From positions 274,648,177-274,712,176 of the forward strand of contig OY282560.1 in NCBI GenBank assembly GCA_958295665.1: 64,000 nt of DNA, written 5' to 3'. The notes beneath the pieces were generated by a model. It did not search any database. It saw only the letters and a list, made by a program, of their open reading frames with translations, and was not told the DNA's origin. The translations under genes were made by a program, and so were the position numbers. Of this stretch, positions 32,771 through 64,000 are shown one piece after another. Source of the stretch: Tipula vernalis. Taxonomy: Eukaryota > Arthropoda > Insecta > Diptera > Tipulidae. Each line of letters begins with the position of its first letter. The stretch's first letter is position 1.

Positions 32771-34059
32771 GCTCAGTTTCTACGGAATACCTGAAAAAAT
32801 TTGCGACCTATTAAAGTATATTCATTGAAAAGTATTTTATAAACTAATTTTTTACTTAACATTTTTTTTGGTGTAATTTATTTTTTCTATTGGACAGAAA
32901 ATTGAATTCTTATTGGAACAAATTTATAATTTGTACTAAAACTTTGATGTTTATTTTAGTGGTTCGGAACTTTGCTTTTATATTTAGCACATTGATATTT
33001 ATTGGAATAGATCCATATGTACTAACAAAGTAAAATTAATTTAATATATTTAATTAAACTACTTCAATGTTCGGACTAAGCTAAACAAAATAATCGTTCT
33101 GTTTTAAAAAAACGCCTAATATGTTTGTTTTATTATTTTACTCTGTCGTGAAGATTAAGAAATTCAGTAAAATAATGCACGGTAATAGCACAAATTATCA
33201 TAATATGTATTCATTTATGGACCGAATCTTTATATTTCAATATAAATGAGCTTTGTGATTCGCATTTTACAAATTTTCTTACATAAGTTTCAATTAAAAT
33301 TATGTTCTTTTAATCCCTTGAATTTAATCGAGATTTATTTTAATAACAAAACATTTATAAATAAATTCTGAAATCTTAACAGTGTACAAAAAGCACCAAC
33401 ACATACCAAAATCAATGAGAATCCAATAGAATTTTGTTTATTCCAATAGGATTTGTATACATATATCTGGGAAAAAAAATGGGAAAAACTTCACATCCAT
33501 CACTTAATAACCTTTCAAACTTGATATTATTCAATTTGATATCTTACGTGGATCAAAAAATATAAATCATTTTCTAAAACCAGAATTTTCGATTGAACGC
33601 AGTTTTTCGTAACTTTTGCGAATGGAGTTCAAAGTTGGTGTATTTATTTTTTTTATAAATTTCCCAGTTAATACATTTTTAATGCATTAAATAACCTTTT
33701 AAACGATATTACACAATGCATTGCAATATCTTTCAAATGGCTTAAAATATAAATCAAATATTAAAATATTATCTTTTTTATGCGATAGTGAAGTTTATAA
33801 CAAAAAAAAAAATAACATGTACGTATATGAATCCAATTGGAATTTGAAAAATTTTATATGTGTTGGTGATTACACTGTCAAAACAAGTATTTTTATGAGA
33901 GAGCCATATAAAAAGTATCAAATAAGATTTGATATCTCTTTCTAATAACACATGCATGCCTTGCTAATAATTAATATGTATCTATTCAACGAGCTTAAAT
34001 TTTGTAAAAAAATAATTAAATTAGACTTCTGAGGTTTAACCAAAAAAGATGAAGAAGAC
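32771..34059. other. Right outer flank of the 167-bp foldback structure
   Basis: AT-rich, no gene. Its first part (to about 33500) mirrors 25330-25590. No convincing outer terminus or target duplication was found between 33.5 and 34.06 kb. Confidence 0.5.
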
Positions 34060-34955
34060 TAATTGATGGATAGTTCTACAAAGGCATTAACTGGAAACAA
34101 CAGCCTGTTGCCCGCATACTGTGCACCACTTGAACGATATGCCATTTCGCAACGGTGTGGCAAATGCCACATTTTGAATTTTATTTTTATGTTATGCAAA
34201 TTTTTAACTAGTTTGAGTACTCCTTGTTTCAGCCAATAACAAGAATACCACAGGGATTGTTCTAAGAAGCCACTAACTGGAAACAATAGCCTCATACCTT
34301 GTGAACCCCATGGACTATATACCATTTCGCAACGGTGTGGAAATTTCCACATTTTTAATTTTCTTGTTAAGTCATGCCAATTTTTTTACTCGTTTGAGTA
34401 ATTTATGGATCGGCCAATAATAAGAATACCATAGGGATTGTTCTAAGAAGCCACTAACTGGAAACAATAGCCTCATACCTTGTGAACCATATGGACTATA
34501 TACCATTTCGCAACGGTGTGGAAATTTCCACATTTGGAATTTTCTTGTTAAGTCATGCCAATTTTTTTACTCGTTTGAGTAATTTATGGTTCGGCCAATA
34601 ACAAGAATACCACAGGGATTGTTCTAAGAAGCCACTAGCTGGAAACAATAGCCTCATATCTTGTGAACCACATGGACTATAGTATATACCATTTCGCAAC
34701 GGTGTGGAAATTTCCACATTTGGAATTTTCTTGTTAAGTCATGCCAATTTGTTTACTCGTTTTAGTAATTTATGGTTCGGCCAATAACAAAATATCACAG
34801 GGATTTTTCTTAAAAGCCACTAATTGGGAACAATAGCCTCATGCCTTGTGAACCACATGGACTATATGCCATTTCGTAACAGTGTGGAGATTGCCATATT
34901 TATTCTTGTTAAACCTCCCCAGTTTATTTCACATTAAATGGGAGTATCAGTTTTA
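34060..34955. repeat. About 180-bp tandem repeat, 5 copies
   Basis: ATTTCGCAACGGTGTGG recurs at about 34145, 34325, 34505, 34691 and (as ATTTCGTAACAGTGTGG) 34871. Each unit also contains AAGCCACTAACTGGAAACAA and TAGCCTCATACCTTGTGAAC. Spacing is about 180-186 bp. Units diverge towards both ends. It is unrelated by eye to the 167-bp and 108-bp families. Confidence 0.9.
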
Positions 34956-41500: not shown

Positions 41501-42152
41501 TTAAACAAAATAGCAAAAACACAAAAAGCCGAACAAGAACTTCAGAATTTATTTTCTTGTTCCAAATGTCACACTAGTTCATCAATGAAACTAGAGCTTT
41601 TGAAACTACCTGGCCTCGAAATCGACCGCGAAACATCTACTGGGACCAATCGCCTGTACATTGCAGATTCACTGCGTCGAACCATCTTCAATACATTACA
41701 TAACCTTACCCATCAAATTGATTACTTTTGGCCCAGTATAAACAAAGATGAAGACAAATGGGCTCAGTCTAGTATATCCTGCCAACGTGCTAAAGTCTAA
41801 CGGCACACAAAACTACCCTATGGATAATTTCAAATTCCACTTGATCGATTCGAACACATCCACTTAGACATCGTACGACCACTTCCTCCGTCTAATGGAT
41901 ACAATTTGCTCACGTGTGTCGATCGCTTCACTCGCTGGCCGAAAGCGTACTACATGATAAACATGTCGGCTGCAACCTTCGCAATGACATTCGTCAACAA
42001 TTACGTATCTCGATTCGGCGTGCCCCTTAACATCACAACTGATCAAGGAAAACAATTTGAGTCCAAGCTTTTCACTGAATTAACAAAACTCCTTGGCTCA
42101 CATCGGATACGAACAACGGCTTACCATCCGCAAGCCAATGGCAAGGTCGAAC
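41501..42152 (+). pseudogene. pol: CsRn1-like integrase, N-terminal and core part
   Basis: RRTIFNTLHNLTHQIDYFWP and SISCQRAKV are the remains of the zinc-binding region. After a stop, FEHIHLDIVRPLPPSNGYN (first Asp), ITTDQGKQFESKLF (second Asp) and YHPQANGKVE (Glu) form the complete D,D-E core. The similarity ends exactly at GTCGAAC (42146-42152), the target duplication of the large transposon, and resumes at 59141. Confidence 0.88.
42146..42152. repeat. Target-site duplication of the 17-kb transposon, left copy
   Basis: GTCGAAC here is repeated at 59141-59147. Both copies lie at the same codon position of the interrupted integrase. Confidence 0.88.
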
Positions 42153-42830
42153 CAAAAACTATAGTAGATTTCATAGAAACGTCTCATGTCGAATAAATAA
42201 ACATTCAAATTAGTTGGGTGTAGAAAATACCTATTTGGGTGTAGAAATTATATTTCGAACAATACAGTGAGCCCCTACGCAATATACTTAAAACCAAAAA
42301 ACATAATTCTCTCTTTGAGTAAATTTACTCTTCAACTAATGCGAGATTGTTTTGAGCGAGGTCAAAAATATGTATTCAGAAAAATTTTCGTGTGTTAAAC
42401 TAGTTAGTATGCGCTGGTACACCGGTGAGCATGATTCAAGCAAGGTTAGCTCGATGTTTCGAGTCACGTGTTCGTGACGTCACACAATTCTGCCACGTGT
42501 TTGTAAATAAATAGAGAAAAAGCGAATGAACCATTTTTTGGTTTGTTTTTATTTTTCGTTTTTTTACTTGTGTTGTAATTTAAAGGTCTCCTTTAATACT
42601 AGAATTGAGTGTCGTCATAAAACAAAAAATTATCATTTGTTTACATATTTAGAGCTAAACTGGTATTAACTGAATCACGACTGGTGAATAAAGGGAATAT
42701 ATATGTTTATTTGTTTTTTTTTTTTTATTAACAAATTAACGATGGGTTTTCATTGGGTTATGGGTTATTTATTGTGACCAACCAGCAGTATACATTTGAA
42801 TTCGATACTGACTAAATGTGGGATTCTAAA
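42153..42830. repeat. Outer left arm of the P-superfamily transposon
   Basis: It starts CAAAAACTATAGTAGATTTC and contains GAAACGTCTCATG, mirrored at the right end by CACGAGACGTCTCG and CATCGTTTTTG. Near the satellite, TTATTGTGACCAACC, AGTATACATTTGA and GATACTGACTAAATGTG mirror 58520-58600 in reverse complement. The middle part is not alike by eye. No gene. Confidence 0.7.
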
Positions 42831-45425
42831 ATGATTTTTAGATAAGATTCTGGAATATGGCCAAGTAGTATGGAACTTGTCTATTTCTCAACCGATTATG
42901 ATGAAATTCGACTTGTACGATAGAAATAGAACCTTCAAATGATTTTTAGATGAAGTTCTGGAATATGGCCAAGTAGGATGGAACTTCGTTATTTCTTGAA
43001 CGATTTTGATGAAATTCAACAAATGCGATAGAAATGGGATTATAAAATGATATTTAGAAGAAGTTCTGGAATATGGCCAAGTAGGATGGAACTTGGATAT
43101 TTCTTGAGAGATTTTGACGAAATTCGACTTGTATGATGGAAATGGGACCTTCAAATGATTTTTAGATGAAGTTCTGGAATATGGCCAAGTAGGATGGAAC
43201 TTGGATATTTCTTGAACGATTTTGACGAAATTCGACTTGCATGATGGAAATGGGACCTTCAAATGATTTTTAGATGAAGTTCTGGAATATGGCCAAGTAG
43301 GATTGAACTTTGATATTTCTTGAACGATTTTGACGCAATTCGACTTGTATGATGGAAATGGGACCTTCAAATGATTTTTAGATGAAGTTCTGGAATATGG
43401 CCAAGTAGGATGGAACTTGGATATTTCTTGAACGATTTTGATGAAATTCAACAAGTGCGATAGAAATGGGATTCTAAAGTGATATTTAGAAGAAGTTCTG
43501 GAATATGGCCAAGTAGGATGGAACTTCGATATTTCTTGAACGATTTTGATGAAATTCAACAAGTGCGATAGAAATGGGATTCTATAGTGATATTTAGAAG
43601 AAGTTCTGGAATATGGCCAAGTAGGATGGAACTTGGCTATTTCTTGAACGATTTTGACGAAATTCGACTTGTATGATGGAAATGGGACCTTCAAATGATT
43701 TTTAGATGAAGTTCTGGAATATGGCTAAGTAGGATGGAACATGGATATTTCTTGAACGATTTTGACGAAATTCGACTTGCATGATGGAAATGGGACCTTC
43801 AAATGATTTTTAGATGAAGTTCTGGAATATGGCCAAGTAGGATGGAACTTTGATATTTCTTGAACGATTTTGACGAAATTCGACTTGTATGATGGAAATG
43901 GGACCTTCAAATGATTTTTAGATGAAGTTCTGGAATATGGCCAAGTAGGATGGAACTTGGATATTTCTTGAACGATTTTGATGAAATTCAACAAGTGCGA
44001 TAGAAATGGGATTCTAAAGTGATATTTAGAAGAAGTTCTGGAATATGGCCAAGTAGGATGGAACTTCGATATTTCTTGAACGATTTTGATGAAATTCAAC
44101 AAGTGCGATAGAAATGGGATTCTATAGTGATATTTAGAAGAAGTTCTGGAATATGGCCAAGTAGGATGGAACTCGGATATTTCTTGAACGATTTTGATGA
44201 AATTCAACAAGTGCGATAGAAATGGGATTCTAAAGTGATATTTAGAAGAAGTTATCGTGTTTCGTATAGTGCGATGGGGGCACAAAAATAAAATGAACAA
44301 AAATAAATTTACTGAATGGCCACACAATGCACAATTTTAAAATATGCGGCCACAAATTTATTTATTATAAGTAATTCACAAAACTGTGGATAAAATCCAC
44401 CACCACTAAGCGCGATACTTTTATTAAACTTTTTATTTATATTCAATTTTAGTTGGTTTATAATTTATTTATAATTATTTTTCTAGGAAAATATTCTCTG
44501 AAAAATGGGCGAGTATATGTCGCGTCAAAGTTGTAACGAGAGTCTTATGACATTTGTGTAATGTCTTTCGTGTGTTTTATGTATGACTTTCGTGAGTGTC
44601 TATTTGAGACACTGGCATAATTATATAGACGAAAAGGCATAGACTGTATATAGACAGTGGAGAAGAGTTGTAGATGGAATTTATTTATAATCATGAATAA
44701 TTAATATTTGTGGTGATGTACGAAATGAAGCGATTGAATAAGTAAATCGCTACAAAGTTCTGGAATATAGCTAAGTAGGATGGAACTTGGCTATTTCTTG
44801 AACGATTTTGACGAAATTCGACTTGTATGATGGAAATGGGACCTTCAAATGATTTTTAGATGAAGTTCTGGAATATGGCCAAGTAGGATGGAACTTGGAT
44901 ATTTCTTGAACGATTTTGATGAAATTCGACTTGTATGATGGAAATGGGACCTTCAAATGATTTTTAGATGAAGTTCTGGAATATGGCCAAGTAGGATGGA
45001 ACTTGGATATTTCTTGAACGATTTTGATGAAATTCGACTTGTATGATGGAAATGGGACCTTCAAATGATTTTTAGATGAAGTTCTGGAATATGGCCAAGT
45101 AGGATGGAACTTCGATATTTCTTGAACGATTTTGATGAAATTCAACAAGTGCGATAGAAATGGGATTCTAAAATGATATTTAGAAGAAGTTCTGGAATAT
45201 GGCCAAGTAGGATGGAACTTGGCTATTTCTTGAACGATTTTGACGAAATTCGACTTGTATGATGGAAATGGGACCTTCAAATGATTTTTAGATGAAGTTC
45301 TGGAATATGGCCAAGTAGGATGGAACTTGGATATTTCTTGAACGATTTTGATGAAATTCGACTTGTATGATGGAAATGGGACCTTCAAATGATTTTTAGA
45401 TGAAGTTCTGGAATATGGTCAATTA
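42831..45425 (-). repeat. 108-bp satellite array inside the left transposon arm (about 20 units)
   Basis: TTCTGGAATATGG recurs at 108-bp intervals from 42848 to 44144, and after a 501-bp insertion from 44758 to 45406. Two monomer types exist (minus-strand text KVPFPSYKSNFVK or RIPFLSHLLNFIK). In the left part types recur in a five-unit order: diagnostic variants TCTATAGTGA (43581 and 44121) and TTGCATGATGG (43238 and 43778) repeat exactly 540 bp apart, a higher-order repeat. Because 108 is a multiple of three and units lack stops, long minus-strand frames (268, 200 and 205 codons) appear. Confidence 0.95.
44254..44754 (-). mobile_element. 501-bp insertion in a satellite unit, possible solo LTR
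   Basis: One 108-bp unit is interrupted. AAGTT occurs at both edges (44249-44253 and 44755-44759), while an intact unit has it once, so this is a 5-bp target duplication. On the minus strand the insert begins TGTAGCGATTTACTTATTC and contains a TATATAATTATG box and AATAAA signals, as LTRs do. It ends ACACGAT rather than in CA, so the solo-LTR reading is uncertain. Confidence 0.65.
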
Positions 45426-46073
45426 GGAAGGGACTCGGTTATTTCTCAACCGATTATGATGAAATTTTACTTGTGTGTTTACAGAGGAATACAATTTTGT
45501 GAACAACTAAAATTGTTGGTTTGGAAATTCGATATGAAGTTTTGCATTTGTTTTGCATGGCAATGATTGATTATTTACTAGAAGATATTTTTCCGCAAAT
45601 ACAAGTAAATTATTTAAAAAACACTTTTGATTGAAGTATAATGTGACTCTAAAGAAATAAAATAAACTTTGTTTGGGGAATTTTACTAACAATTTAGTTA
45701 ATAAAAAGTAAAATGATGGGGCATTAGAATAAATATTACCTGTCGCACTGTCGCTCAATTAGCAAAGCTGGTTAGAAACACTTTCTATGCAATAAGCATT
45801 GAGAAGCATAATGGAGATTGGCTGAAAAAAATCTCTATTTGAATTGCGGAAAAGCCGGTTTTTCTTATTTCCAGAATTCTTTTAATATACAATTTAAAAT
45901 TAGTTTAGGCAAATTGAGATAACGCTAGAAATAAAGCAGAAAGAGTTCTAAATATGATGAAATTTACAATTCTGTACTACACCCATTCATGCAGTCATGT
46001 TTTTCGACCATAACAAAACTTTTCGAAATTGTTTTTGTAATACTACACAAGCATCATAATAACATGAGATAGT
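45426..46073. repeat. Inner left arm of the P-superfamily transposon
   Basis: This is the reverse complement, with modest divergence, of 57703-58340. For example AGCAAAGCTGGTTAGAAACA (45761-45780) is exactly mirrored at 57992-58011. Alignment ends at about 46066, where a small element follows. A minus-strand frame of 83 codons (45507-45758) has a counterpart on the right arm, but its substitutions look unconstrained, so it is not called a gene. Confidence 0.88.
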
Positions 46074-46250
46074 ATTGGGCGCTTTCAGCTCTATACCAAC
46101 TGTTGGCAACATGTTGACTAAAATAACCCTGTTGTTTTCTGAATGCCCCGATTTATCGAAAATTTCATGGCAATGTTATGTATCGAATGTCATTTTGCCC
46201 ATCAGTAAATTTTGAAAGCCAACATGTTGCGGGACCTGAAAGCGCCCAAT
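46074..46250. mobile_element. Small inverted-repeat element (TTGGGCGCTTTCAG ends)
   Basis: The left end ATTGGGCGCTTTCAG and inner GCAACATGTTG are mirrored by CAACATGTTGC and CTGAAAGCGCCCAAT on the right. Arms are about 45 bp around 90 bp. No clear target duplication. Confidence 0.7.
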
Positions 46251-47388
46251 GGCACCCATTTCCAAGCCGTTGAAAGCTTACTAAAAGCGATTGTGTTGCA
46301 GTCAGTGCTTTAATTTTCGATTTTATTTTTTAAAGCCATCATATCAAAAATTCGTCGATCTCATACTGTTTGAATAATAATTCAAGTCGAATCATTTTTG
46401 ACGTCAAGAACGACGTGATGATAATTATCTTTAGCAAAAATCATGGAACATATTAAACAACTGATAACTAAAAGCACATAAGCAGCACGGTTATTGTACA
46501 ATTGAAATTGAAATTAAATAAGTATTTTATATAAAAACCGCTAATACTTAAGCAAATTAATTAATGAAATATATGTATTATTAGGTAAAAATAATATTAA
46601 ATTTAAGTTATAATTATATTAATTATTATAATAAGTGATATATGCAAAGTGAAAAGTTTTTGATCGTATAGACCCCTTGTTTGATTCATAAATTTATTTT
46701 AGAATTATGTTCATTTTACACTTTACAGGGATACTAACTACAGTTTCGTTAATTAGACTACCATTTAAAATGATCAGTCAATCAAGAAGCTATAGTAATA
46801 TTTTTTGACGTTTTCTCTAAATAAGGAAATCTATGAAAACTTGGGAACTTTGCTTTAAAATCAGATTTACCTATACCAGGAGGGATGTGCGTGTGATTTT
46901 TATTCCAGAAATGGTGAAAAGAAAGAGGATGTTAGGCCTTACAAATCCATTAGCCGCACATTATTTATTTTGAAAACCTTGCATAAAATACCGGTTCAGT
47001 AGATTAGATTCAACGCCTTCAAGCGACTTGACATCATAAATTGATGACACACTCCGGAACAAAGAGCTACTATTATGTTCCTTCATTGATATTCCACGGG
47101 CTTTTGATAATACCAAATTCAAAGCCTTTCCGGAACAAAAACAATCATGGGGTATAGACTCGGCCTGATCCTATAAGTAGTTTGCTTCTTTGTAGTATTA
47201 AACAATTCGAAATAGAATAATGTGAAAATGAAAAATCATTTTTATTGTTTTAGCAATTCATTTAATTTTCTTTGGTTAATATCCAATTCATATTAAATAC
47301 AGTCATTTCAAATTCACTAAAAAATTTATTCAAATAAAAAATTAATAAATACATAATATCTATCTAATCTTTGCCGATAAAGATTACT
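46251..47388. other. Non-coding sequence between left arm and transposase end
   Basis: About 1.1 kb, AT-rich. No protein similarity is seen. It presumably contains the transposase 3' untranslated region. Confidence 0.5.
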
Positions 47389-50110
47389 TCAAGAAGTAAG
47401 TATCCTTAGCTTGCGGTGGCGGGAAAGCTTGTATCCTTTTCTTGTAGAAACAGCGACTCTTCGTTTTCTTCGAGTTTCGATTGAATTTTGTGTATTAAGG
47501 TTCCGAAATCGTTTTGTCACCCATTTACAATGCTTCCTTAATAGTATTAGTATCATATAATCTAACACTTCCAAATGATGCTCGTAGCAAGAATTAGATT
47601 CGTTGAACCAACTTTTAAAATCGTTCATATTATTGGTAGAGCTGATGCAATTATTAATAATGTGTGTCTTAATACCAAATTCATGCGAGTGATTTTTAAA
47701 AACATTAGAAAAAATATTAAGATGCAATTTTGAAATTTTGAAGTATAATTCACTGGGTGGATGAAGAGCACCGAATTCATAATCATTTTTATAGTTCTTA
47801 TAAAATAAAAAATTTTCACTTGTTGCTACGATTGTTTCTCCCTCCATTTTAATTAATGTCTCGGAACATTGAAGACAAGGTTTTTTTTTAGTTGTTTGTA
47901 AGCTAAAAATCCAAAAAAATATCTTGCCGACGCATCATTGAAACTGCAGCCTTCGTCGTCCTCTAAAACTATGGAGTCTAATTCATCTGGCACTTCATTC
48001 TCTTCTGTTGTTTCTTCTGCGTTACTATCTGAAATTGCCGTCTCCTCACAAAAGTCCTGTGTGGTGTCCATTAAAACTTCTGACGTTATTATCAGGTCAT
48101 CAGAATCAGCCTCACAGTTAGTTAACGCTGTATTATTTAAAAATTTTATTGATAGAATTTTGGCTGCGATGTGGCTGAACTCATTTACTGACGGGAGTAC
48201 ATTATTTCCTCCTCTTTGTCTTACAAGACCAAAAAAATTTTCGATGGGATCTTGATTTAACCGCGAAGTTAAAATAAATTTTGTTTCATTTCCTTTACTC
48301 GTCAAATGTTGTAGTAGTTGTAAAATTCCATTTATTGATTGCTTCATACCTTACCAAAAACTATATATTGACAATATATAGTTTTTGGAACAGTAGGTGA
48401 AATACAGTCAATATAATTCAGCATAAGATTTAAATTTTCAAAAACACTATTATCTAATGTAAGCCCGTGCTTCTGCGGATTCTGATCGAACAACAATTTG
48501 CTGTTTAAGTTGTCGAACAGCTTATCTATTGATTCTATAAATTTTGCAGTTGACAAAGCAAAAGGTTGAACTTGCTTTGAAAATTTATTAAAATCCAGCA
48601 TGGTTCGGATTCCGGCGGCAACAGACCTGCTAAATACTTGAGTGGCTAGTTTTACTCTCATTTTTTCGAAGGTATTTGGTTGTATATGGCGTATAGTTAG
48701 TTTCGGACACAGTTTGGTTTTGTTAGCTGCTTCACAATTATACAGCGCCCGTATCACTGACCAGCTTACAATTCCGTCGGGAGTTTTAAAATTTACAGCC
48801 ATCAAATTGTTCCTCAAAGATTTAATTAAGTGTGGTACATCATATAAAGCAAAGATTTTATCGTCATTATAATAAAAAAATGGGTTATGTTCGGTAACAT
48901 TTAATATTTTATAGCAATTTCTATTGTTTGGTCCCTGATCACATACAACCGCAACTATTGTTAAATTAATATTTTGTAGAGCTTTTATTGTATCCAATAA
49001 AATTTCGGTTAATACTGATCCTGCTATATTTTCCTCTGTAGCATGGTATGATACCAAATATTTGAATGGTTGTAAAAGCCCGCGTATCATAAATGCGATT
49101 ATGTACTGTGCTATTGTTGGGGTTCTACTGCTGTTGATTTGAGAATATCCATCAATTAAGTCAGAAGTTCTATCGTATTCCAAATCAGCCCTTATTTTAA
49201 TCTCATCAAACATTAAAACAACTTTCTTTGAACTTTGATCCATTTCATCCAAACTCACCTTCAAATTGTTTAAAAGAATTTGGTTTATGCCAGGCTTTAT
49301 GCTTTTGAGCGGCGCCCATCGACATAACGATGCTTTCGATGGTATATTTAATTTTAAAATGTCCCTCAAAAATCGGTAGCACGATGGAGATTTAAAATAG
49401 ATTCTCTGTGCAAGGTTTTTTTGTTCCGTTTGCCACTGTTTTTGTTTTCCAATCAATAACATTTTCACAAACTCCTTGGCGTCTGAACTTATGTCTAACT
49501 CATCAATTTTGCTTTTTAGTGAAATTTTCTGTGACGAGCGAGATTTTAGTTTAATCTTTAACAATTTTATTTGCTGTTTTAAATTATAAGATTTTTTTTG
49601 TTTTATTTTGATATTGTTATACAATTTCTTATTTTGCTTAAGAACTTCTTCGTATTTATTTTTGTAGTAATATGAATTCTTTAAATTGACGAAACAATTG
49701 CTGCAACTGGAAGGAATTTCGTTATTTATAGATGATGGACCAAAATTACTCCAATGTGCTTCAAAGTTTTCCAAGCTTAAATCTGGCATTTCAGGTCTAA
49801 TATAAGTTTTAATATCCCTATAACGATTTGGGATTTCATCATCAACTTTCATATCCACATATGTTAAAAAAAAACGTGGAATGGAATTACGTTTCAATTT
49901 CCGTTTCAAAATTGAACTTGAATCGAAATGTCTTTCGCAAATATGTTGCCTCTTGGAGACATTCTCGGACAACAAACCGCATTTCTTTACCCAAATATCA
50001 AACAAGATTTTATTTGATGGGAATGTGAAAAATTTTCTTTCCGGGTTTGATCTTCTTGATGCTTTGCACGATGTTACAGCGCATATCATACCGGAACTTG
50101 AATTCACCAT
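47389..50110 (-). pseudogene. P-superfamily (THAP) transposase, two frame breaks
   Basis: The first frame (50110-48344, 588 codons) starts with a THAP zinc finger: C10, C15, W40, C58, H61, for DNA binding. A lysine-rich coiled region (about 145-200) follows, then the RNase H-like catalytic domain with VLMFDEIKI (Asp 302), VAVVCDQGPNNRNCYKI (Asp 391) and LYDVPHLIKSLRNNL. Frame 2 (48347-47890) contains LTSRLNQDPIENFFGLVRQR, the conserved late-catalytic block. Frame 3 (about 47880-47389) holds the C-terminus. The breaks are at 48345, beside a 35-bp palindrome, and in a run of nine A on the coding strand (47889-47881). Total about 900 codons. With no other stops it is recently dead, unless expressed by frameshifting. 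Confidence 0.93.
48355..48389. repeat. 35-bp perfect palindrome in the transposase gene
   Basis: CCAAAAACTATATATTG, a central A, then CAATATATAGTTTTTGG: 17-bp arms with a one-base centre. It sits between the conserved ISPTVPK text and the block that continues in another frame, about 8 bp before the first frame break. Confidence 0.95.
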
Positions 50111-50647
50111 TTTTTAATACTGTAACATTAAAATTCAAATTAAAAAATCGAAAAAATCATAAAATGTAAGAAAAGTTCTGAATATTTTCCGGTTGAGAGA
50201 AAAAATTCTTTTAATAAGGGACTATTCACACCAAGCGCGAATAGCGAATTCAAGTAAACAATTTTTATAAAATTATGTTTTAATTTTTCTTTTACTTCGG
50301 TTTCTTTATAGACTGTTTTTAATTATACAAATTTTAAATGTCTATTAAAAACATGGGGTAATTTTTGATTTTTCACCAATATTTCAACCTTTCGAATTAT
50401 CATCAGCGTATTTATATATAATCTTGATATACGAGTAAATATAGGTGAAATATTAAAAATTACCATACATTTTTTAAATTTATTTAATAAAGAAGCCAAC
50501 GTAAAAGAAAAGTTAAAGTGTATAAAGGCAATTAACTATATTAAAATAATTAATAAAATTATAATATAAAAAACACTTATACATACTTATTTATATAAAA
50601 TGTTTGTCTATTTATGATGTTTTTAATCAAATTAAATTCAGCGTTTA

Positions 50648-50750
50648 GCCCGAAAATTATTTCAATATTAGAGAAAAATGAAATTCGCATGTAACATGAC
50701 ATTTTTTAGAGGAATTTCATTTTTCTCTATTTTTGAAATAATTTTCGGGC
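50648..50750. mobile_element. 103-bp inverted-repeat element with TTA target duplication
   Basis: Arms GCCCGAAAATTATTTCAA with further AGAGAAAAATGAAATTC, and the mirror GAATTTCATTTTTCTCT with TTGAAATAATTTTCGGGC, cover most of its length. TTA flanks both sides (50645-50647 and 50751-50753). A 3-bp TWA duplication points to PIF/Harbinger mobilisation. Confidence 0.8.
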
Positions 50751-50960
50751 TTAGGTAATTAAATTTCATTTCAATGTGCGGTAATTGGCCATTTTTTATA
50801 AGAAACTAGCGCAAGTACAGCAAAATGTAATGCAAAATAGCACCATTGGGAAGATTAAAGCTAGTTTGAAGTCTATTTTTACAATTCATACTTATAATTT
50901 TGAGTCTAAATTGATAACTCTTAGGGAATCAAGAAAATGATAAATAATCAAATCACTAAC

Positions 50961-50972
50961 ATGTTTGCATTT
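50961..50972. repeat. Target-site duplication of the Jockey element, left copy
   Basis: ATGTTTGCATTT, repeated at 55592-55603 directly after the A-rich tail. Confidence 0.85.
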
Positions 50973-51166
50973 TGGGTCTTGGGTGCGTCTCAATAGGGTA
51001 GGGGTTGACCGTCTATAGCCATGTATTTCGTGGTCTATATTCCAACGCTGCAACTATGTAGAAACCACCAAATTTGTCTAGTATACCTCCACGTGGTAAC
51101 ACCCGGGCAACGATGTGAAGCATCGGCGAAATACTAGAGGCGAGTGCAGTACACTATAAATGAGTA

Positions 51167-52750
51167 ATGAGCAGAATAAATAAGGAAACTAATACCCCAG
51201 GTGGTACACCTGTTGCTCAGGTAAATCCACCCTCTTCGGAGGTCGGTCTCATGGATTCTGGGGGAGACCAGCCATTGCTATACTACAAATATTTTAACCA
51301 ATCCCAAGACATGTTGGTGAATAAACAAGCTCATTTGAGTGAAACAGAAAAGGATAATTCACATCCCTTCCAGAGGAGTAACAAAGTCGCGTATTCTCCG
51401 ATAAGAGGCCGTAGTCCCTCCATTGGGGCCATCAGCCACAACAATCGTTCTACAAACGAAGAAAAGCTTCACAATGAATTGTGTAAAGCTAATAATGCAT
51501 TAGTTGAAGCCAACAATATAAATAAGCAACTGAATGTTACAATTGCATGGATGCAGGAGCGTATGAAGAAGCTTGAAAACGAAGTTAAAGCTCTTAAGCC
51601 AAAGGAGGACATCGGTTCTACTCCTAACCAGAATACAACTCTACAAGAGTATCATACGGATGAAAAAGAACTACCTCGAGAAACTGAGTGGATTAGAGTT
51701 AAAGATGGGAGAAAAAAAGGAGACGGAATAATTCGCCCTCCCCACCTCAATTAAAGGATAATGTTCCAAATATTATCCAGAAACAACCAAAAAAAATACC
51801 ACCACCAATAGTAATAGATGAAGTCAAAGACTACGATGTACTCTATGAGAAAATAAAAACAATAACTGCTACTGATAAGTTTAATGCAAAGGTGATGAAT
51901 GGAAACCCCATCAAAATAAACTTAGAAGATGGTGAAACACAGAAAAATGACAAAAATGTTAAATGAAGAAAAACGTGCTTGGCACACGTTTGAAGATAAA
52001 CAAACCAGACCAATTAGGGTCATGGCTAAAAACTTACACTCTACGTGTAAACCAGATAAAATAATTGATGACCTGAAAGCAAAAGGATTTAAGGCAACTG
52101 AAGCATCGATTAAGCTAAAACGGAGAGGCAAAGTACCTTTAAACATGTTTATGTTGACCTTCGATACTGATGAAGATATCGAAAAAATTTATCAAATTAA
52201 GTACATCTTGGGGTGCAAAGTGGTTATTCAGCCTCTAAGAAGATCTAAGCTTATACCACAATGTAAACAATGTCAAGCCTATGGAGATACACAAAAATAT
52301 TGCAACAGGCAACCCAGGTGTGTCAAATGTTTAGGTAAGCATTATACCAAAGATTGAGTAAAAGCCCAAAATATTCAACCTAAATGCGTTCACTGTGGAG
52401 AAAACCATCCGGCTAACTACAGAGGATGCAGCGTTGCTATTGAACTGCAAAATATCAAAAATAAGAACGTGATTGCTAAAAATCCAAGTTTATTCAGGAA
52501 ACAAGCGGTTAAGATGAACCGACCCGAAGTAAATCGTAGAATGTCGGGAACTACTCAAGGACAATTTGGTAAAATGACTTATGCTCAAGTAATGATGAGC
52601 AACGGAAATCCAGGAAAAACTGCTCAAAATGACGATATAAGTCAAACACTTAAATTAATTTTAAGCAGACTAAATACATTTGATGAGCGATTACAGAAAC
52701 TAGAATACAGCACTAAGGGAGCCATCCCTAAACAGAAAAATGGCCAATGA
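51167..52750 (+). pseudogene. Jockey ORF1 (Gag-like, zinc knuckles)
   Basis: ATG 51167 opens MSRINKETNTPGGTPVAQ, and a coiled region (about residues 95-145) follows. The frame shifts near 51745 and back near 51930. The block RVMAKNLHSTCKPDKIIDDL and DIEKIYQIKYILGCKVVIQP resembles the pre-zinc-knuckle domain of insect Jockey ORF1. Knuckles follow: CKQCQAYGDTQKYC, CVKCLGKHYTKD with TGA at 52355-52357, and CVHCGENHPANYRGC. The frame then runs to 52750, overlapping the ORF2 start at 52740. A close relative of its N-terminus is at 63216. Confidence 0.88.
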
Positions 52751-55370
52751 TCTTAGAATCTTATATTGGAATGCCAATGGACTGATGCCACATCAACAAG
52801 AACTGCAAGTGGTCCTGGACACAAAAAAATCGATGTATGTCTCATCACGGAAACACACTTCACTAGTCAATCAATCATTAAATTTAAAAATTATCAAATA
52901 TACCACGCTATTCACCCTGGAAACACTGCTAAAGGAGGTAGTGCTGTTATAATTAGAAATAGTATTCATCACTATGAGGAGTTAAAATATGAAACGGAAG
53001 AAATACAAGCAACTGCTGTTATTGTCAAATCCAAAAGTAGTTCTATTTGTATTGCTAGTATTTACTGCCCACCGAAGCACTCAATGAAAGAAAAAGATTA
53101 TCTCGAGTTCCTCAGTAAATTAGGAAAACGATTTGTACTTGGAGGAGACTTTAATGCAAAAAATGTACACTGGGGATCCAGATTAACAACAACTAAGGGT
53201 AAAGCACTCCTAAAAGCTATCAGAAATTGCAGTTGTGAAGCCCTCTCAACTGGAAAACCAACCTACTGGCCAACTGATCCAAACAAAGTGCCAGATCTGA
53301 TTGATTTCTTTGTAATAAAGAACATATCTGTAAATTATGTACAAGTAGATGAAAGCCACGACTTAAACTCTGATCATTCACCAATACTTCTAACGTTAAG
53401 TGAAAAAATCATTCAGAAAGAAAGAAACCCTTTCCTAGTAAATAATCACACTAATTGGGCATGCTTTAGACTATCGCTAGAAGAAAAAATTAACTTAATG
53501 GTTCCATTAAAGACTGAAGAACAATTAGACAAAGAAGTTCACAAATTTGTAAACGATATACAGCAATCAGCTTGGGAAAATACTCCTGAAATTAAAACGA
53601 AAATCAAGGGAAACAATTACCCTATGGAAATTAGGGAACTCCTCGCAGAAAAAAGAAGAGCGAGAAGAGTATGGCAACAAACAAGGGCCCCGCAAGATAA
53701 ATCTCATTTGAACAACCTCACTCAACAATTAAGAAGAAAGATCAAAGAATTGAAAGATGAATCAATCAGCAACTATTAAAGAAAATTAACTAATGATAAC
53801 AGTACTAATTATTCTCTTTGGAAAGCAACCAAAAGAATCAAAAGACCAATAATGCAGATTCCCCCAATAAAAATAGCAGGTGAGAAATGGGCTAGAAATA
53901 ATGAAGACAAAGCTCGAGAATTTGCCGAACACCTCGAAAAAATATTCCAGCCACATGAAGACCAAACGTTGGAAGCCGAGATAATAACTGAACAAGCTGT
54001 GCAAGAAAGTAAAGAAATCCTACCGACAACACCAAAAGAAGTCATGCGTGAGATAAAAGCTAATATGAATACGAAAAAAGCTTCTGGGTACGATCTTATT
54101 ACTGCAGAAATCTTAAAAGAACTGCCAAGGAAAGCTCTGGTGAAACTTACCAGTCTTATAAATGCAGCATTTAGAATCAAATGTGTACCAAGCTTATGGA
54201 AAATTGCAGAAGTAATTATGATCCCAAAACCTGGGAAACCACCACACATAGCATCGTCTTATAGGCCAATTTCACTATTGCCCGTCATGTCCAAACTCTT
54301 TGAGAAGCTTCTGGTAAAAAGATTAAATCCGATAATCGAGAGTAAAAACTTGATCCCAAATCATCAGTTCGGTTTTCGCAACCAACACTCAACAATTGAT
54401 CAAGTACACAGAATAACCAGTATAATTGAGAAAGCATTAGAGGAGAAAAAAGTCTGTTCAACAGTAATTCTAGACGTTGCACAAGCGTTTGATAGAGTGT
54501 GGCATGAAGGACTTAACCACAAGTTAAGGAATCTTCTACCAATGCAATTTGCTAAGATACTGGAATCTTACTTGAAATATAGGTTCTTCAGGATTAAGTT
54601 AGATGATACATTTTCTGAATTGAAAGAAATCAATGCAGGAGTTCCGCAGGACAGTGTATTAGGGCCGGTTTTATACCTACTATACACTTATGATCTTCTT
54701 CATTAGAAAACAACACAGTGGCAACTTTTGCAGATGATACGGCGACCTTAGCTGTTGGAAAAAGCAACGAAGAATCAACACAGAAGTTACAATCAGCTAT
54801 AACTCAAATATATAAATGGACAAAAAGATGGAGAATAAAACTAAATGAAGCTAAATCAGTTCACATCAACTTTACAAACAGACGAATCGAACATATTCCG
54901 ATTACCATAAATCGGGAAATAATACCGCATGCGAACGCAGCTAAGTATCTCAGCATGACCCTGGATGCTAAACTACAATGGAAAGCACACGTCAAGAAGA
55001 AAAGCGAAGAATTAAGACTTAAATACAGAAAAATGTATTGGCTGATGGGAAGGAACTCTTCTTTATCAACATACAACAAGCTTCTACTTTATAAGCAAAT
55101 ATTGAAACCGATTTGGACTTATGTTACTTAGCTTTGGGGTTGTACCAAACAGAGCAACGTAAATATCATCCAAAGATTTCAGAATATGGTATTAAGGAAC
55201 ATCGTTGATGCACCTTGGTATGTCAGGAACAATGACCTTCATAGGGACCTTAAAATGAACCTTATCTTATACTAAATCCAGGAAAAAGCACGGAGACTGA
55301 AGAAAAGGCTCCGCCAACATGTGAACATTGAGGCAACTCAGCTCCTAACCAAACATTTTGAGCTGGTGTG
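52740..55370 (+). pseudogene. Jockey ORF2: endonuclease and reverse transcriptase
   Basis: It begins MANDLRILYWNANGLMPHQQ (endonuclease start), shifts frame near 52830, then shows VCLITETHF, CIASIYCPP, FVLGGDFNAKNVHWGS and DLNSDHSPILL, the endonuclease catalytic blocks. A TAA at 53777-53779 is followed in frame by the RT: SSYRPISLLPVMSKLFEKLL, HQFGFRNQHST, LDVAQAFDRVWHEGL (motif A), AGVPQDSVLGPVLY (motif B), then after a frameshift at about 54705 TFADDTATLA (motif C). Stops at 55131 and about 55275 lie in the C-terminal region. All catalytic motifs survive. Confidence 0.93.
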
Positions 55371-55591
55371 ATTGTCAGTTTAAGCAGCATTGTGATGATC
55401 TAAAATCCACTACAAAGATGTGGTTTACTTCAATTTACCGAACACTATGGAACACCAATGGGAGGAAGCCATAGATTAATTTAAGTTAGTAAATTAAGTC
55501 AGAAACAAATTACTCATTAGTCCAGGAGACTAGATTGTAATTACATAAAATAAATAAATAAAATTTATTTTAAATAAAAAAAAATAAAAAA

Positions 55592-55603
55592 ATGTTTGCA
55601 TTT
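55592..55603. repeat. Target-site duplication of the Jockey element, right copy
   Basis: ATGTTTGCATTT, matching 50961-50972. Confidence 0.85.
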
Positions 55604-56490
55604 CAATTTGAGCTGTTGTTGGGCTCATTCTTATAAAAACCGAACAAAACATTTGACCGGCTTTAGTTGACATAAAATCAACTACATCATTGACAAATTA
55701 AAATATATTTAGGGTTAGGGACTTTGTACTTTATACTTAGGGTTACCCACAAAATAAGAGCTCCAAATAGATAGGAGCAAGCTGCTTCGAACTTCCCGAA
55801 AAAGCTTTGCCTGAACCTATGTAAAAATTTAAAGAGTTTTCGATAGCTTAACATAATAGATTTTTTAATCAAAATGGCAACACCTCCTCCATCAAAAATA
55901 CATATTAATAAGTATATTAATATATTATTAGATTTTAAGTAGAAGTTGGATTTGTTATAAATTTGAAGTTTCATAATAGGATAAATCAACGACGATTCGA
56001 ATCCTATATACCTGAAAAATTCGAAATCGGAAAATATCCTAATATGTCCCTGAGTGGGTTTGACATACTATAATGATGGTATAATGGATTTTATAAACAA
56101 CATTTTATGATACAGGGAAAACTGTAAAGTTGGACACGTATATAACATGGATATGTGCTACAACAACAAGAAGAAATAAAACCTTTTTATTTAATTTTTT
56201 ATTTCTTATTATCCACAAAAAGCTCAATTTCATTAAGTGTAAAACCCCAGTTAGCTTACATACTTTACACTTATTGAATTTTATTTATTTTTATGGTTTT
56301 CAAACGAAACCTTTATAAGTTGGCCAATTTCGGAACCATGAGTATCCAACTTAGACAGATTTCACTGAACAATGTTGCTTGAGGCTTAAAAATGAACCAT
56401 GCAATTTTTAAATCGATTCCTAATAATGCAATATAAAAAAAGATTTATAGCCAACAGACGACTTTCTCTTATAAACGGCGTCGCAATCAT

Positions 56491-56617
56491 CCCTATTATG
56501 ATTGTCGAGTCGATCGACAATCGACACGGCTCTCTGTTGCCTAGTATCAATTGAGAAAACAAAAACGCAACGCAGAGTCGTGTCGATTGTCGATCGACTT
56601 GTCAATCATAATAGGGG
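56491..56617. mobile_element. Small inverted-repeat element with 50-bp arms (CCCTATTATGATTG ends)
   Basis: Left CCCTATTATGATTGTCGAGT then CGATCGACAATCGACACGGC is mirrored by GTCGTGTCGATTGTCGATCG then ACTTGTCAATCATAATAGGG. About 46 of 50 bases pair. It shares its inner arm sequence with the element at 15297-15405 and its outermost CCTATTATG with the elements at 56881 and 20609. Confidence 0.88.
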
Positions 56618-56880
56618 GAATCCTATTAAACAAATTTCTTTCAAATTTTGGCAAAAATCCACTGGGACCTCCCAATTTATTAAAAAAAAAAAAACTTATA
56701 TATGGTTTCAATTTAATTAGTTGAAACACCTGGACGCAGACGAGAGAGGACACAGACAGATCGACGGACTGACCGATCGGCAAATAGACCGACAAAAACC
56801 AATTCGAAACTCAAATTTTCGGACTCAAGGGACACTAAAACAGATAAATTTCCAAAATCTCAAGGGCGAAAGTTATACAG

Positions 56881-56977
56881 CCCTATTATGGTTCTCACTT
56901 AACCGAAAAATTTCATACAAATCTAGTCACATTTGCATAGTATTTCTCGATGAGGTGAGAACCATAATAGGGGTAAT
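56881..56977. mobile_element. Small inverted-repeat element (CCCTATTATGGTTCTCAC ends)
   Basis: Left CCCTATTATGGTTCTCACTT and right GAGGTGAGAACCATAATAGG G form arms of about 20-25 bp around 50 bp. The same terminal sequence bounds the element at 20609-20773. Confidence 0.82.
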
Positions 56978-57699
56978 AGTTATTATTAAACATTTTCGTA
57001 ACGTAAATAAAATAAAATCACTTACCAATTGTATAAATTTTGACACTGTTATTTTTAATTTCAACACCTCACAATTTACTTTTAATTATTACTTGAAACT
57101 TCGTTCACTCACAAACAACTTATGATTTTCACAGTGGTTACATACGAGTTTATATACGATTACACATTTGCGTATATTTTAAAATTCGATTTGAAAAAAA
57201 TTCCACTCAATCTTCCGTTATTTTCCCAAACAAACTAAAAATGAATATTTCTCGAATAGAGTAAAATATAATGAAATTGCGCAAAATTGGGTAAATCAAT
57301 TTCGTCTTATTACAGATTACAGTTGTACATACTTCTTTGTACGTACTCGTTTTTCAAAGAGTCCTGGAGATGTCTTTTTTTAATTTTTTAATAAAATGCT
57401 TTTTTTGATTATTTAGCTTAAACATTTTTTATTAATTTCTAAATAAAAAACCCCACGTAACCCGTATATTTAGTCATTTTCAAGGTATTTTTAAATAAAA
57501 TTAATTTGGACAGAAAAAGAAGTTGGGCAGCGCTGATTTATAAAATAATTTCAAAGAAACTTTTTTAATGAATGTTTTTCTAACTTAACTCTTCTTTCAT
57601 CGGTAAGTTGAGGACTATTATTTTGGACATTAATAGTTTTACACCACTAATTAAATTAAAATGTGAAATTGAAAATCAAGGTTGTTTCAAGAAAATCAA

Positions 57700-58319
57700 G
57701 GTATCATGTTATTCATGATGCTTGTTTAATGTTACAAAAACCATTTCGAAAAGCTGTAGTATGGCCGAAAAACATGACTGCGTGAATAGGTGTAGTACAT
57801 AATTGTCAATTTCGTCATATTTAGAACTCTTTCTGCTTTATTACTAGCGTTTTCTCGCTTTGCCTAAACTAATTTTAAATTGTATATTAAAAGAATTCTA
57901 AAAATAATAAAAACCGGCTTTTCCGCAATTCAAATAGAGATTTTTTTCAGCCAATCTTCATTATGCTTCTCAATGCTTATTGCATAGAAAGTGTTTCTAA
58001 CCAGCTTTGCTAATTGAGTGACGGTGCGACAGGTAATATTTATTCTAATGCCCCCTCATTTTACATTTTATTAGCTCAATTGTTAGTAAAATCCCCCAAA
58101 CAAAGTTTATTTTATTTCTTTAGAGTCACATTATATTTCAATCAAAAGTGTTTTTTAAATAATTTACTTGTATTTGCGGAAAAATATCTTCTAGTAAATA
58201 ATCAATCTAATAGAAAAAATCTTTAATACATTTGACATACTTGCAAAACTTCATATCGAATTTCTAAACCAACAATTTTAATTGTTCACAAAATTGTATT
58301 CCTCTGTAAGCACACAAGT
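57700..58319. repeat. Inner right arm of the P-superfamily transposon
   Basis: Inverted counterpart of 45430-46070. Landmarks in order are ATGCTTGT, GAAAAACATGACTGC, AGAACTCTTTCTGCTTTATT, AAAGTGTTTCTAACCAGC, CGACAGGTAATATTTATTC and CAAACAAAGTTTATTTTATT. Differences are scattered point changes and small indels. Confidence 0.88.
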
Positions 58320-58530
58320 AAAATTTCATCATAATCGGTTGAGAAATAACCGAGTCCCTTCCTAATTGACCATATTCCAGAACCTTTTCTAAATATCATT
58401 TTAGAATCCCATTTCTATCGCACTTGTCGAATTTCATCAAAATCGTTCAAGAAATATCCAAGTTCCATTATACTTGGCCATATTCCAGAACTTCATCTAA
58501 AATTCAATTTAGAATGTCACATTTAGTAAG
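58320..58530 (+). repeat. 108-bp satellite units in the right transposon arm (about 2)
   Basis: AATTTCATCATAATCGGTTG, ACCATATTCCAGAACC, ATCATTTTAGAATCCCATTT, then CAAGTTCCATTATACTTGGC CATATTCC. Same family as the left array, in opposite orientation, but only about two units. Confidence 0.92.
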
Positions 58531-59140
58531 TATCATAATCATATGTATATTCTCAGTTTGGCACAACAAATAGTTCATAACGCAATGTACACCCATGTTA
58601 GTAATATAAATTCGCTTTATTTTCATATAAAAATAAGAACTCCAGCCGAAATATGAAGTTTTTTTTATTCAGCCGGGAAAAGGATAAATAAAGGTTAAAA
58701 AATCCAAAACCAATAACATAAACTTATTAGTAAACTACTATTATATACGAGAAGCGTTTATTTTCTATATACATATCTAGCTTAATGTTTTTTATTTATT
58801 TGTTGCAAACTATCACAAATTTTGTATGAATTGATGTACGTACTCACACATAAAAATTGTAAACACAAAAAATAAACAAAAATAAAAGTAGTGAGAAATG
58901 GGAATTTTTGTTAGATTTGTTTTGTAAATTTTTATACTCGTAGAGCATACTCAATTCAAAGTCAAACGCAGATCAAGAAGAAGTAAGAGGTAAGAAGAAA
59001 TTAACAGCAGAGAGTCCGATTTAATGAGATTAAGAAGATAAAGTTATTACAGTTCTACTGTATTTTCCATTTGTTGTTGTTGTTTTTTTATTTTTTGAAA
59101 ATAAATGTTCACGAGACGTCTCGATATTACATCGTTTTTG
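58531..59140. repeat. Outer right arm of the P-superfamily transposon
   Basis: The first part mirrors 42770-42830 (CACATTTAGTAAGTATCATA, TATGTATATTCTCAGTTTGG). The last part (CACGAGACGTCTCG, CATCGTTTTTG) mirrors the left terminus. The middle shows no obvious match. Non-coding. Confidence 0.7.
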
Positions 59141-59147
59141 GTCGAAC
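59141..59147. repeat. Target-site duplication of the 17-kb transposon, right copy
   Basis: GTCGAAC, identical to 42146-42152. Confidence 0.88.
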
Positions 59148-62455: not shown

Positions 62456-63215
62456 AAAAAGAAATGTCTGTCACGGTCCTATGCGTGCTATGTTTCTGTA
62501 TTCATTCCCACAATTCAGATTGCTAACAGAAAATTTTGTTCATTCAGCGGCCTTTAGGCGGTCATCATTGGCCGGCTAGGGCTCAGGGTTAGGGGTGGGA
62601 TTTCTGAAGGCATGAATAAACCTTGCTAGACCGCAACGAAGTAATAAAAAAAAACGAGAGACCAGCAGACGACAACTTACCTCATACACACTTACTATGA
62701 TCATCCCACTATCGGATTGACTTTATCTCATACTGAAACTGTAAGAGCGAACACAAATTTTCACTTCAATTCGCAACGAAACAAAAATTTTCACCGGTAA
62801 ATAATAAAAATAATGAAATCAGGAAAGTTATTATCAAATCAACTGAATTTAAAAAGAATTTATTTTGTCCATAAAATAATATTGGATGTATAATGAATTT
62901 GTTTGTTTTTTTTTATTTTATCAAAAATTAATTTCTAAGTTAAGAAAGATAGATTTCTAAGAAGAAAAAAACAAAATTCATACAAAATGAATGGGGGGTA
63001 AGGGGCGCCGGTTTAGATGGTCTTATTATACTAGCCCAAATGCCAACCTCACCTGCACGTGGTACTTCCTGCTAATTAACTAACGAGGCTCTGGCGACCG
63101 AGATACGGCGGAATAACCGACTACCGAGAACATAGCAAATGATGTTCTCTTCAATGACCCACTACCAACTTGTACTGGTTAGGTTGGTAGTTGATACATA
63201 ACCAGTTTTAAAGCA
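62456..63215. other. Region between piggyBac and the second Jockey ORF1
   Basis: No gene. 62570-62620 resembles 35850-35900. The last few hundred bases probably form the leader of the Jockey element whose ORF1 starts at 63216, but they do not match the leader at 50973 closely. Confidence 0.4.
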
Positions 63216-63850
63216 ATGAGTTCAACGCAAAAAGGAAACAATACCCCAGGTGGTAAACCAACTACCCAGTTGGCTAATCCACCCTCTTACGAGGCTGGCT
63301 CAATGGATTCTGGGGTGAGCCAATCATTGCTAAACCCATTCGAAAGAAGTTCAATGTTGTTAAGATCACCAAACAATCATACTAACTCTGCAAATCAGCA
63401 GAAAGACGAAAACGCTGAACTCTGTCGAAAACTCAGTGAAGTAGAGGTACTTTTAACCCAATTAAGAAGCGAAATTGAAAAGCTGAAAAAAGAAAATGAA
63501 GAATTGAAGAAGCCCAAACCAATGGAGATTTCTGAAAACCCGCTAACTTGTTATAATGAAACAAGTACTCACACTAGTTATAACAATGAGTTCCATACTG
63601 ATGAAGAGGATCTCATGAGAGAAACAGATTGGGTACTGAAAAGGAAGAAAAGACCTACCAAAAAAAGAAAAGCAGAATTCTCGCCTGAAGTTGGAGATCA
63701 TTCGCAAGCTAATGTATTAGTAACTGGTGATACTAATACCAAACCAACTCACAAGCAACAGCAACAAAAGGTTGTACCGAAAGAAAAGGCTCCTCCGCCA
63801 ATTAATGTAATCGGCATAACAGAATTTGCAAGTATACAATCTATAATGAA
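63216..63850 (+). pseudogene. Jockey ORF1, second copy, 5' part
   Basis: MSSTQKGNNTPGGKPTTQLA, NPPSYEAGSMDSGVSQSLL closely follows the ORF1 at 51167 (NTPGGTPVAQ, NPPSSEVGLMDSGGDQPLL). A coiled-coil stretch (ELCRKLSEVEVLLTQLRSEI, EKLKKENEELKK) and an FHTDEEDLMRETDWV block (YHTDEKELPRETEWI in the other copy) follow. Similarity stops at about 63850, and the frame ends at 63884 in different sequence. Up to that point no stop occurs. It is a related subfamily rather than an identical copy. Confidence 0.8.
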
Positions 63851-64000
63851 ATCAGTGTATTTTATATTTTTTCTCAGATCTTAGTTAAATATTTTAGGTT
63901 TGTATCTGATATTGATTCTGTTGTATTTTTTCGTGATGGGATTTTGTATTTTATCAGAAATAGGTTAGCCTACAGTGTCAATATTTTGGGTATTTATGGT
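63851..64000 (+). other. Unidentified sequence at the window end, open on plus strand
   Basis: After a pyrimidine tract ending in CAG (to about 63877) one frame is open to the end: LVKYFRFVSDIDSVVFFRDG, ILYFIRNRLAYSVNILGIYG. It is too short to identify. It interrupts the Jockey ORF1, so it is either another insertion or a truncation junction. Confidence 0.3.

Follow-up and report, generated by a model that had tools for sequence, protein, structure and literature searches.

Among the described transposons, Galileo of the Drosophilidae is well documented as a natural generator of chromosome inversions, and the role of its long repeats is uncertain. Galileo has an intronless gene for a P-type THAP transposase, many copies lacking the transposase, long inverted arms, known to contain tandem repeats in some subfamilies only (~140 bp in one species, ~210 bp in another), and duplications of 7 or 8 bp at palindrome-like sites, both lengths being known for D. 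willistoni. The P element of Drosophila melanogaster has introns, makes 8-bp duplications and, to our knowledge, carries no satellite arms. Tetris, a foldback-type element of Drosophila virilis, is described as having tandem repeats in its inverted arms and as being linked to satellite DNA (PMC4079207).

The element analyzed here represents a new family of the P superfamily outside the Drosophilidae, whose architecture is a variant form of that of Galileo; the likeness to Galileo noted here is one of build. The initial annotation had proposed a Galileo-like relative, “probably from another fly lineage,” and the host is a crane fly, Tipula vernalis. Positions 42153–59140 of the window (the whole analyzed stretch of 64,000 nucleotides, located on chromosome 3) constitute a single mobile element, which opens with CAAAAAC, closes with GTTTTTG, and lies between two copies of the 7-bp target duplication GTCGAAC, 42146–42152, within a gypsy-type integrase, and 59141–59147, both delimited by comparison with empty sites. 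The integrase frame stays open across the joined flanks for 119 codons. In a genome search with 360-base joined flanks, all 40 scored integrase places (out of 1819 first-look candidates) continue through the joint, and the three integrase copies that were read each have a single site there (two exact, one GTCAAAC), with the joint ungapped. Together with other copies of the element, these empty sites bear out the previously suggested 7-bp duplication. Assembling long repeats is difficult, and the structure might be ascribed to an assembly artefact; the chance of that is negligible, given these 40 out of 40 empty sites, the same plan at many loci on three chromosomes, and an assembly from PacBio reads with QV 58. 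We consider it highly probable that the element is a P-superfamily DNA transposon of the cut-and-paste type, resident in T. vernalis, with the plan and mechanism proposed below.

This plan comprises a unique left end, a 108-bp array, an inner arm block, a spacer with the transposase gene, an inverted block, an inverted array, and a unique right end. On the plus strand, the left end (42153–42736, 584 bp) is followed by the left arm, that is, the satellite array (part 1 at 42737–44253, with 13.2 units found by TRF at 42829–44253, and part 2 at 44755–45474, with 6.7 units), broken by an interruption of about 500 bp (44254–44754), and the inner block of 593 bp (45475–46067). A short segment with inverted ends (46075–46252), recognized by reading the sequence, leads from the inner block to the spacer; at this position a gap of similar size is seen in other copies, e.g., L009. 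The spacer mid1 (46253–47388, plus strand) provides an orientation marker, and the transposase gene (47389–50113) lies on the minus strand. Further to the right, a nested non-LTR retroelement of about 4.6 kb encoding an endonuclease and a reverse transcriptase (50973–55591, plus strand) is flanked by 12-bp duplications, ATGTTTGCATTT, at 50961–50972 and 55592–55603. The first ~180 bp of the right spacer (55604–57703) recur in L031, and the remainder as a whole was not found to be common to the copies. The right arm, on the minus strand, consists of the inverted inner block (57704–58310; 90% over 821 aligned positions against 45266–46067) and the inverted satellite (58311–58600), and the element ends with the unique right end (58601–59140, 540 bp, plus strand). 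Subtraction of the non-LTR element and of the ~500 bp within the array leaves about 12 kb, as had been estimated. The term “giant” suits the window copy, at 17 kb, but not the family, as the 14 other complete copies span 0.88 to 9.6 kb.

The transposase (50113–47389) matches, above the cut-off, the Pfam models of THAP (E = 2.3e-11), TNP-like RNaseH_N (1.3e-25), the GTP-binding insertion (1.6e-20), and RNaseH_C (3.1e-8), and slightly under it Tnp_P_element, which covers the HTH domain (21.6 vs. 23 bits); it therefore combines a THAP domain with an RNaseH-like catalytic domain containing a GTP-binding insertion, as is characteristic of the P superfamily. In the match to the P transposase the DDE and DxxH residues are aligned, namely, the invariant D303, D392, and D425/H428 of the window protein, as well as NQDxxE in the next open stretch. 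These domains, the fold family, and the catalytic residues confirm the THAP–P transposase noticed in the middle of the element and support its assignment to the P superfamily. The P element is similar in transposase domains, catalytic residues, short matching tips, and differing subterminal DNA, but differs in its introns and in the distance between the transposases: in the tree (56 rows, the P element taken from PDB 6p5a only, no Galileo rows) it sits on a long branch, the window row filling 46% of the columns. The searches with the transposase yielded no protein named Galileo or 1360, or originating from Drosophila, among their matches. No intron is seen in the crane-fly gene, since relatives align over consecutive stretches, separated only by breaks that range from a few bases to about 20, and in this it agrees with Galileo.

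The reading frame is broken near 48350–48371 and near 47880. Two other places match at 92–95%: L031, which covers all 2729 bp of 47389–50117 in three pieces, with one stop each in two of the three matches, and L019, the other transposase place, without the THAP end. As the window gene is broken and neither of these was seen whole, this counts against our main explanation, under which rare transposase-bearing copies would make a THAP-domain transposase acting on the ends.

The outer 584 bp on the left and 540 bp on the right contain no detectable inverted copy of each other except for about the last 35 bp (CAAAAAC...ACGTCTC); in an end-to-end comparison of the last 45 bp, one of 2000 shuffles was as good. 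The best local alignment of the two ends scores 33 and covers 29 bp of A/T-rich sequence, against a mean of 24.6 after shuffling (this score was reached by three out of 300 simple shuffles), and we reject plain inverted copies at the outer ends; a relaxed BLAST gave a weak A/T-rich similarity with E = 0.002. Such weak likeness makes a remote common origin of the ends possible. Inverted copies span only 42737–46067 and 58600–57704, so that the initial annotation, which had described the two sides as inverted copies, was right for these segments (its mirrored 20-mer is present at 45761 and 57992), but not for the outer 584/540 bp beyond the ~35-bp tips. Likewise, its Galileo-like arms do bear satellite, with about 20.0 units in the left arm and 1.9 in the right, close to the suggested 20 against 2; however, the long repeats of Galileo are terminal, whereas those of the crane fly do not start at the tips and lie inside the unlike ends. 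The transposase would recognize the two unlike ends with their common ~35-bp tip, excise the element, and reinsert it.

Whether the satellite units, as well as the ends, are putative binding sites of the THAP domain is doubtful. Not a single 9-base satellite word is common to both ends, the right arm of the window has just 1.9 units, and L024 has none. The THAP consensus is TNNGGGNW; neither the satellite nor the right end contains it, and the left end has a single reversed instance, located far inside. Binding to the satellite would nevertheless have a precedent in Galileo, with BS2 and BS3 located within its tandem repeats (PMC3688188), and the word GAAAATAC is found at a distance of 71 bp from the left tip and 74 bp from the right one, close to the GalileoG footprint at 63–80 (PMC3688188).

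For other genomic copies, the best 40 of 625 first-look left-end candidates were scored, a sample biased toward young copies; copy number is based on these left-end candidates. Both ends are present in 14 of 21 further copies; as for the remaining seven, the L014 stretch starts inside the element, the L020 stretch stops inside the right end, and in L010, L012, L013, L021, and L026 a complete right end was not found within the examined stretch. Among these 14 complete copies, the duplication is exactly 7 bp in eleven, in agreement with the initial annotation, one has a single mismatch, one (L011) has 8 bp, and one (L015) has both ends and no duplication, which speaks against the main explanation. 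A usual length of 8 bp, as in the P element proper, was rejected, as the base preceding the 7-bp site varies among copies and 8 bp are seen in L011 only; 7 or 8 bp is the range of the superfamily. Thirteen duplications yield the motif S-T-W-W-A-A-S (12 have T at position 2, 11 have A at position 5, and all 13 have A at position 6), similar to Galileo GTATTAC in the outer bases and differing in the inner ones. Insertion would occur at sites of this type with a 7-bp stagger.

The element might be a true Galileo, with a transposase from the Drosophila Galileo branch and the unlike ends acquired later. The 7-bp and once 8-bp duplications, recalling D. willistoni, the inverted arms with tandem repeats, and the gene without a visible intron would fit, as would some D. 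mojavensis copies whose repeats are down to 18 bp via loss at one end. We regard this origin as unlikely, as the unlike ends are common to all 14 complete copies and the window and hence are not a private loss, and as three related P groups of the same genome (L029, L035, and L036, single copies) show no satellite arms within 3.1–4.0 kb of the gene. The L029 surroundings contain a single inverted pair, a weak one (22–227 and 7874–8061; 208 bp, 69%), no inverted pair was found around L035 and L036, and a search for the ends of these groups by tips and duplication gave no convincing pair.

The lack of satellite arms in these three sampled groups, together with the position of the arms inside the unlike ends, would also suit a composite origin, in which nesting in an ancestor joined a foldback-like element with arms to a plain unlike-ended P-type element, the whole then moving as one. 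This seems improbable, since the transposase sits between the arms, and, on reading by eye, the two ends show no direct duplication at their inner edges. At somewhat less than even odds, a crane-fly P-type lineage may have evolved satellite arms independently of Galileo, inside unlike ends, the ends fixing polarity and the arms permitting inversion of the interior, with one family, two isomers, and satellite DNA carried through the genome. Compared with Tetris, the crane-fly element differs in its P-type transposase and in its unique ends, which are unlike each other.

The arms, i.e., the 108-bp array and a block of ~0.6 kb, are 92.6–99.5% identical within one copy (11 measurable copies), and across copies identity is 95.6% for left–left, 96.1% for right–right, and 96.2% for left–right comparisons; the array size differs both between arms and among copies, down to zero units in L024. 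Under the main explanation, the arms would recombine with each other within one element, which would even them out and, by unequal exchange, alter the number of repeats. The same recombination would flip the interior between the fixed ends. Of 20 long loci, 17 carry an interior that is reversed with respect to the ends, one has the orientation of the window copy, and in two the marker is missing. Twelve of the 14 complete copies measure 4.3–6.5 kb, with the transposase not found in them; most of the copies seen, being short, transposase-less, and in one orientation, presumably spread in trans from a single flipped and deleted founder. The flip could also be a single old rearrangement common to a burst of copies. 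In the flipped copies, one near-palindromic part of the right spacer, ~120 bp long, has the plus rather than the reversed orientation, against the prediction of a plain flip. Separate insertion of this part would account for its orientation.

A second satellite-armed P-type family, far from Drosophila and with ends that mark polarity, makes the roles of tips and arms separable. Owing to the unlike ends, interior flips can be counted from assemblies alone. Finally, a 108-bp repeat is seen here to be carried by a transposon to many places in a genome of 1.27 Gb.

The element occupies positions 42153-59140 of the window (G000:C3:274648177-274712176), and GTCGAAC adjoins it on both sides. When its flanks are joined, the gypsy integrase frame is open over 119 codons, and the joint is crossed without interruption in all 40 scored genomic places (40 scored of 1819 first-look candidates); three uninterrupted places inspected in full each have a gap-free joint and a single copy of the site, exact in two cases and with one change in the third. 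Taking together the continuous frame and the uninterrupted genomic copies with one site, the 7-bp duplication proposed in the initial annotation is real.

From left to right, the window copy consists of a 584-bp left end; a left arm formed by an array of 108-bp repeats (20.0 units, with a ~500-bp interruption within) and a 593-bp inner block; a short segment; the transposase gene on the minus strand between two spacers, the right one containing a nested non-LTR element; a right arm with the inverted inner block followed by the inverted array (1.9 units); and a 540-bp right end. The non-LTR element is bordered by ATGTTTGCATTT at 50961-50972 and 55592-55603, and another copy of the transposon, L031, is continuous across this insertion point and lacks that element. 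Its removal together with the ~500-bp interruption leaves ~11.9 kb, in line with the earlier estimate of about 12 kb without nested insertions. Also located in the right spacer are two short pieces (56490-56620 and 56879-56996) that resemble MITEs, are near-palindromic and carry CCCTATTATG at their ends; the second is found beside the left arm in most transposase-less copies as well. An open frame at 63195-63884 resembles the start of the first frame of the non-LTR element at 51164.

Convincing alignment of the outer parts is limited to approximately the last 35 bp, further inward of which there is only weak A/T-rich similarity; for the last 45 bp of both ends, an equal score was reached in one of 2000 shuffles. 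The arms begin inside the ends in other copies too, e.g., at 594-1526 versus 5196-4266 of the 5721-bp copy L017.

In the open stretches of the transposase, the cut-off was exceeded by the models for THAP, RNaseH_N, the GTP-binding insertion, and RNaseH_C and narrowly missed by that for HTH. The P transposase was the top of five PDB sequences matched by a 13-row profile (E 1.4e-68), the remaining four being human-type THAP domain entries. By these features the element belongs to the P superfamily. The reading frame of the window copy of the gene is broken twice, around 48350-48371 and around 47880, making this copy a pseudogene. A 35-bp near-perfect palindrome (48354-48388) lies at the first break, each of its arms (CAAAAACTATA...) being like the left tip of the element; the aligned stretch 48085-48889, which includes this palindrome, has 14 bp less in L031.

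The genome search with the transposase yielded 91 match rows, with 74 of 4317 candidates scored. Among these rows, 92-95% identity was observed at just two places besides the window, C3:176344513-176345927 (within copy L019) and C2:195075208-195077370 (within L031); C1:234500911-234502590 is 62-67% identical, and all others are at most 59% identical. Several further P-superfamily groups are present, ~53, 42-46, and 41% identical to the window transposase among the matches scored, and many of their frames are long and open (up to 998 residues among the matches listed).

Orientation of the interior was followed in 20 loci of ~10 kb each, chosen from left-end matches, which with L007 make 21 copies. 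The marker spacer (46253-47388 in the window) is reversed and adjoins the right arm in 17 of the 20 loci, is absent in two (L016, L026), and is oriented as in the window in one, the 9.6-kb L019 with transposase pieces. Both ends were recovered in 14 of the 21 copies, with lengths from 878 to 9631 bp; 12 of these complete copies are 4.3-6.5 kb long and have no transposase match. Their duplications are exact in 11 cases, whereas L009 has one mismatch, L011 has 8 bp, and L015 has none; chimeric Galileo copies with unequal flanks are known (PMC3573991). The left 220 bp differ on average by 2.0% among 19 copies and the window, in a sample leaning to the youngest copies.

The 13 long complete copies have arrays of 5.3-14.9 units on the left and 0-14.0 on the right, compared with 20.0 and 1.9 in the window. 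In 11 of the 12 copies with both arms, the left and right arm could be compared and are 92.6-99.5% alike; across copies, similarity is no higher for arms of the same side (95.6 and 96.1%) than for those of opposite sides (96.2%). The two copies with a transposase retain a side-specific signal: their left arms are 96.4% and their right arms 97.6% alike, against 94.5-94.7% when a left arm is compared with a right one. The shorter copies resemble the right arms of these two (95.0-97.2%) more closely than the left arms (91.8-93.8%), whichever of their own arms is compared.

Other repeats in the window include a ~360-bp relic of the 108-bp satellite at 14742-15100, on the opposite strand (68-88% identical to element units), shortly after an integrase-like frame (13982-14266); a 181-bp tandem repeat (34120-34901, 4.3 units); and another foldback-like structure, made of two inverted arrays of a 167-bp repeat at 25722-28354 (15 units) and 30978-32781 (10 units) whose similarity reaches ~92%. 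Elsewhere in the genome, COX1 on C68 repeats every 16,012 bp, fitting the 16.01-kb mitogenome given for Tipula vernalis in PMC11803394, and the best named hit of mitochondrial ND2 is Tipula nova, at 92% identity. Locus L030 on chromosome 2 (from about G000:C2:191941585, match 191943085-191944425) carries mitochondrial ND2, COX1, and COX2 with open frames, its COX1 score equalling that of mitochondrial contigs; it is either a recent transfer to the nucleus or a misjoin in the assembly.

Insertion with a 7-bp duplication at many sites, unlike ends, two interior orientations, and varying arrays are established. Rare transposase-bearing copies could drive THAP-directed cut and paste in trans; arm-arm recombination would be the source of both the interior flip and the arm likeness, and unequal exchange that of array size change. 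The flip may represent one founding event. Galileo provides a precedent for satellites as THAP sites (PMC3688188); motif support for this role was not found in the satellite and ends of the crane-fly element.

Galileo has been described in Drosophilidae (PMC10990002, PMC4168063, PMC3573991, PMC3688188), and the literature searched, mostly outside subscription journals, yielded no crane-fly example of an element of this kind. The superfamily assignment of the initial description stands. The long repeats of Galileo are terminal, whereas the long arms here lie inside unlike ends, and in this position the element departs from Galileo. Near the genes of three other P groups (53, 43, and 41% identical, one copy each), no such satellite array was observed within 3.1-4.0 kb, one weak inverted pair of ~200 bp surrounding the gene in L029. 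The satellite arms therefore look like a feature of the element's own branch, as judged from stretches in which the true ends of these relatives were not found. The element is a well-bounded new family with a variant plan within a known superfamily, set apart from Galileo by architecture; being polarised, it adds a second system in which the function of Galileo-like arms can be studied.
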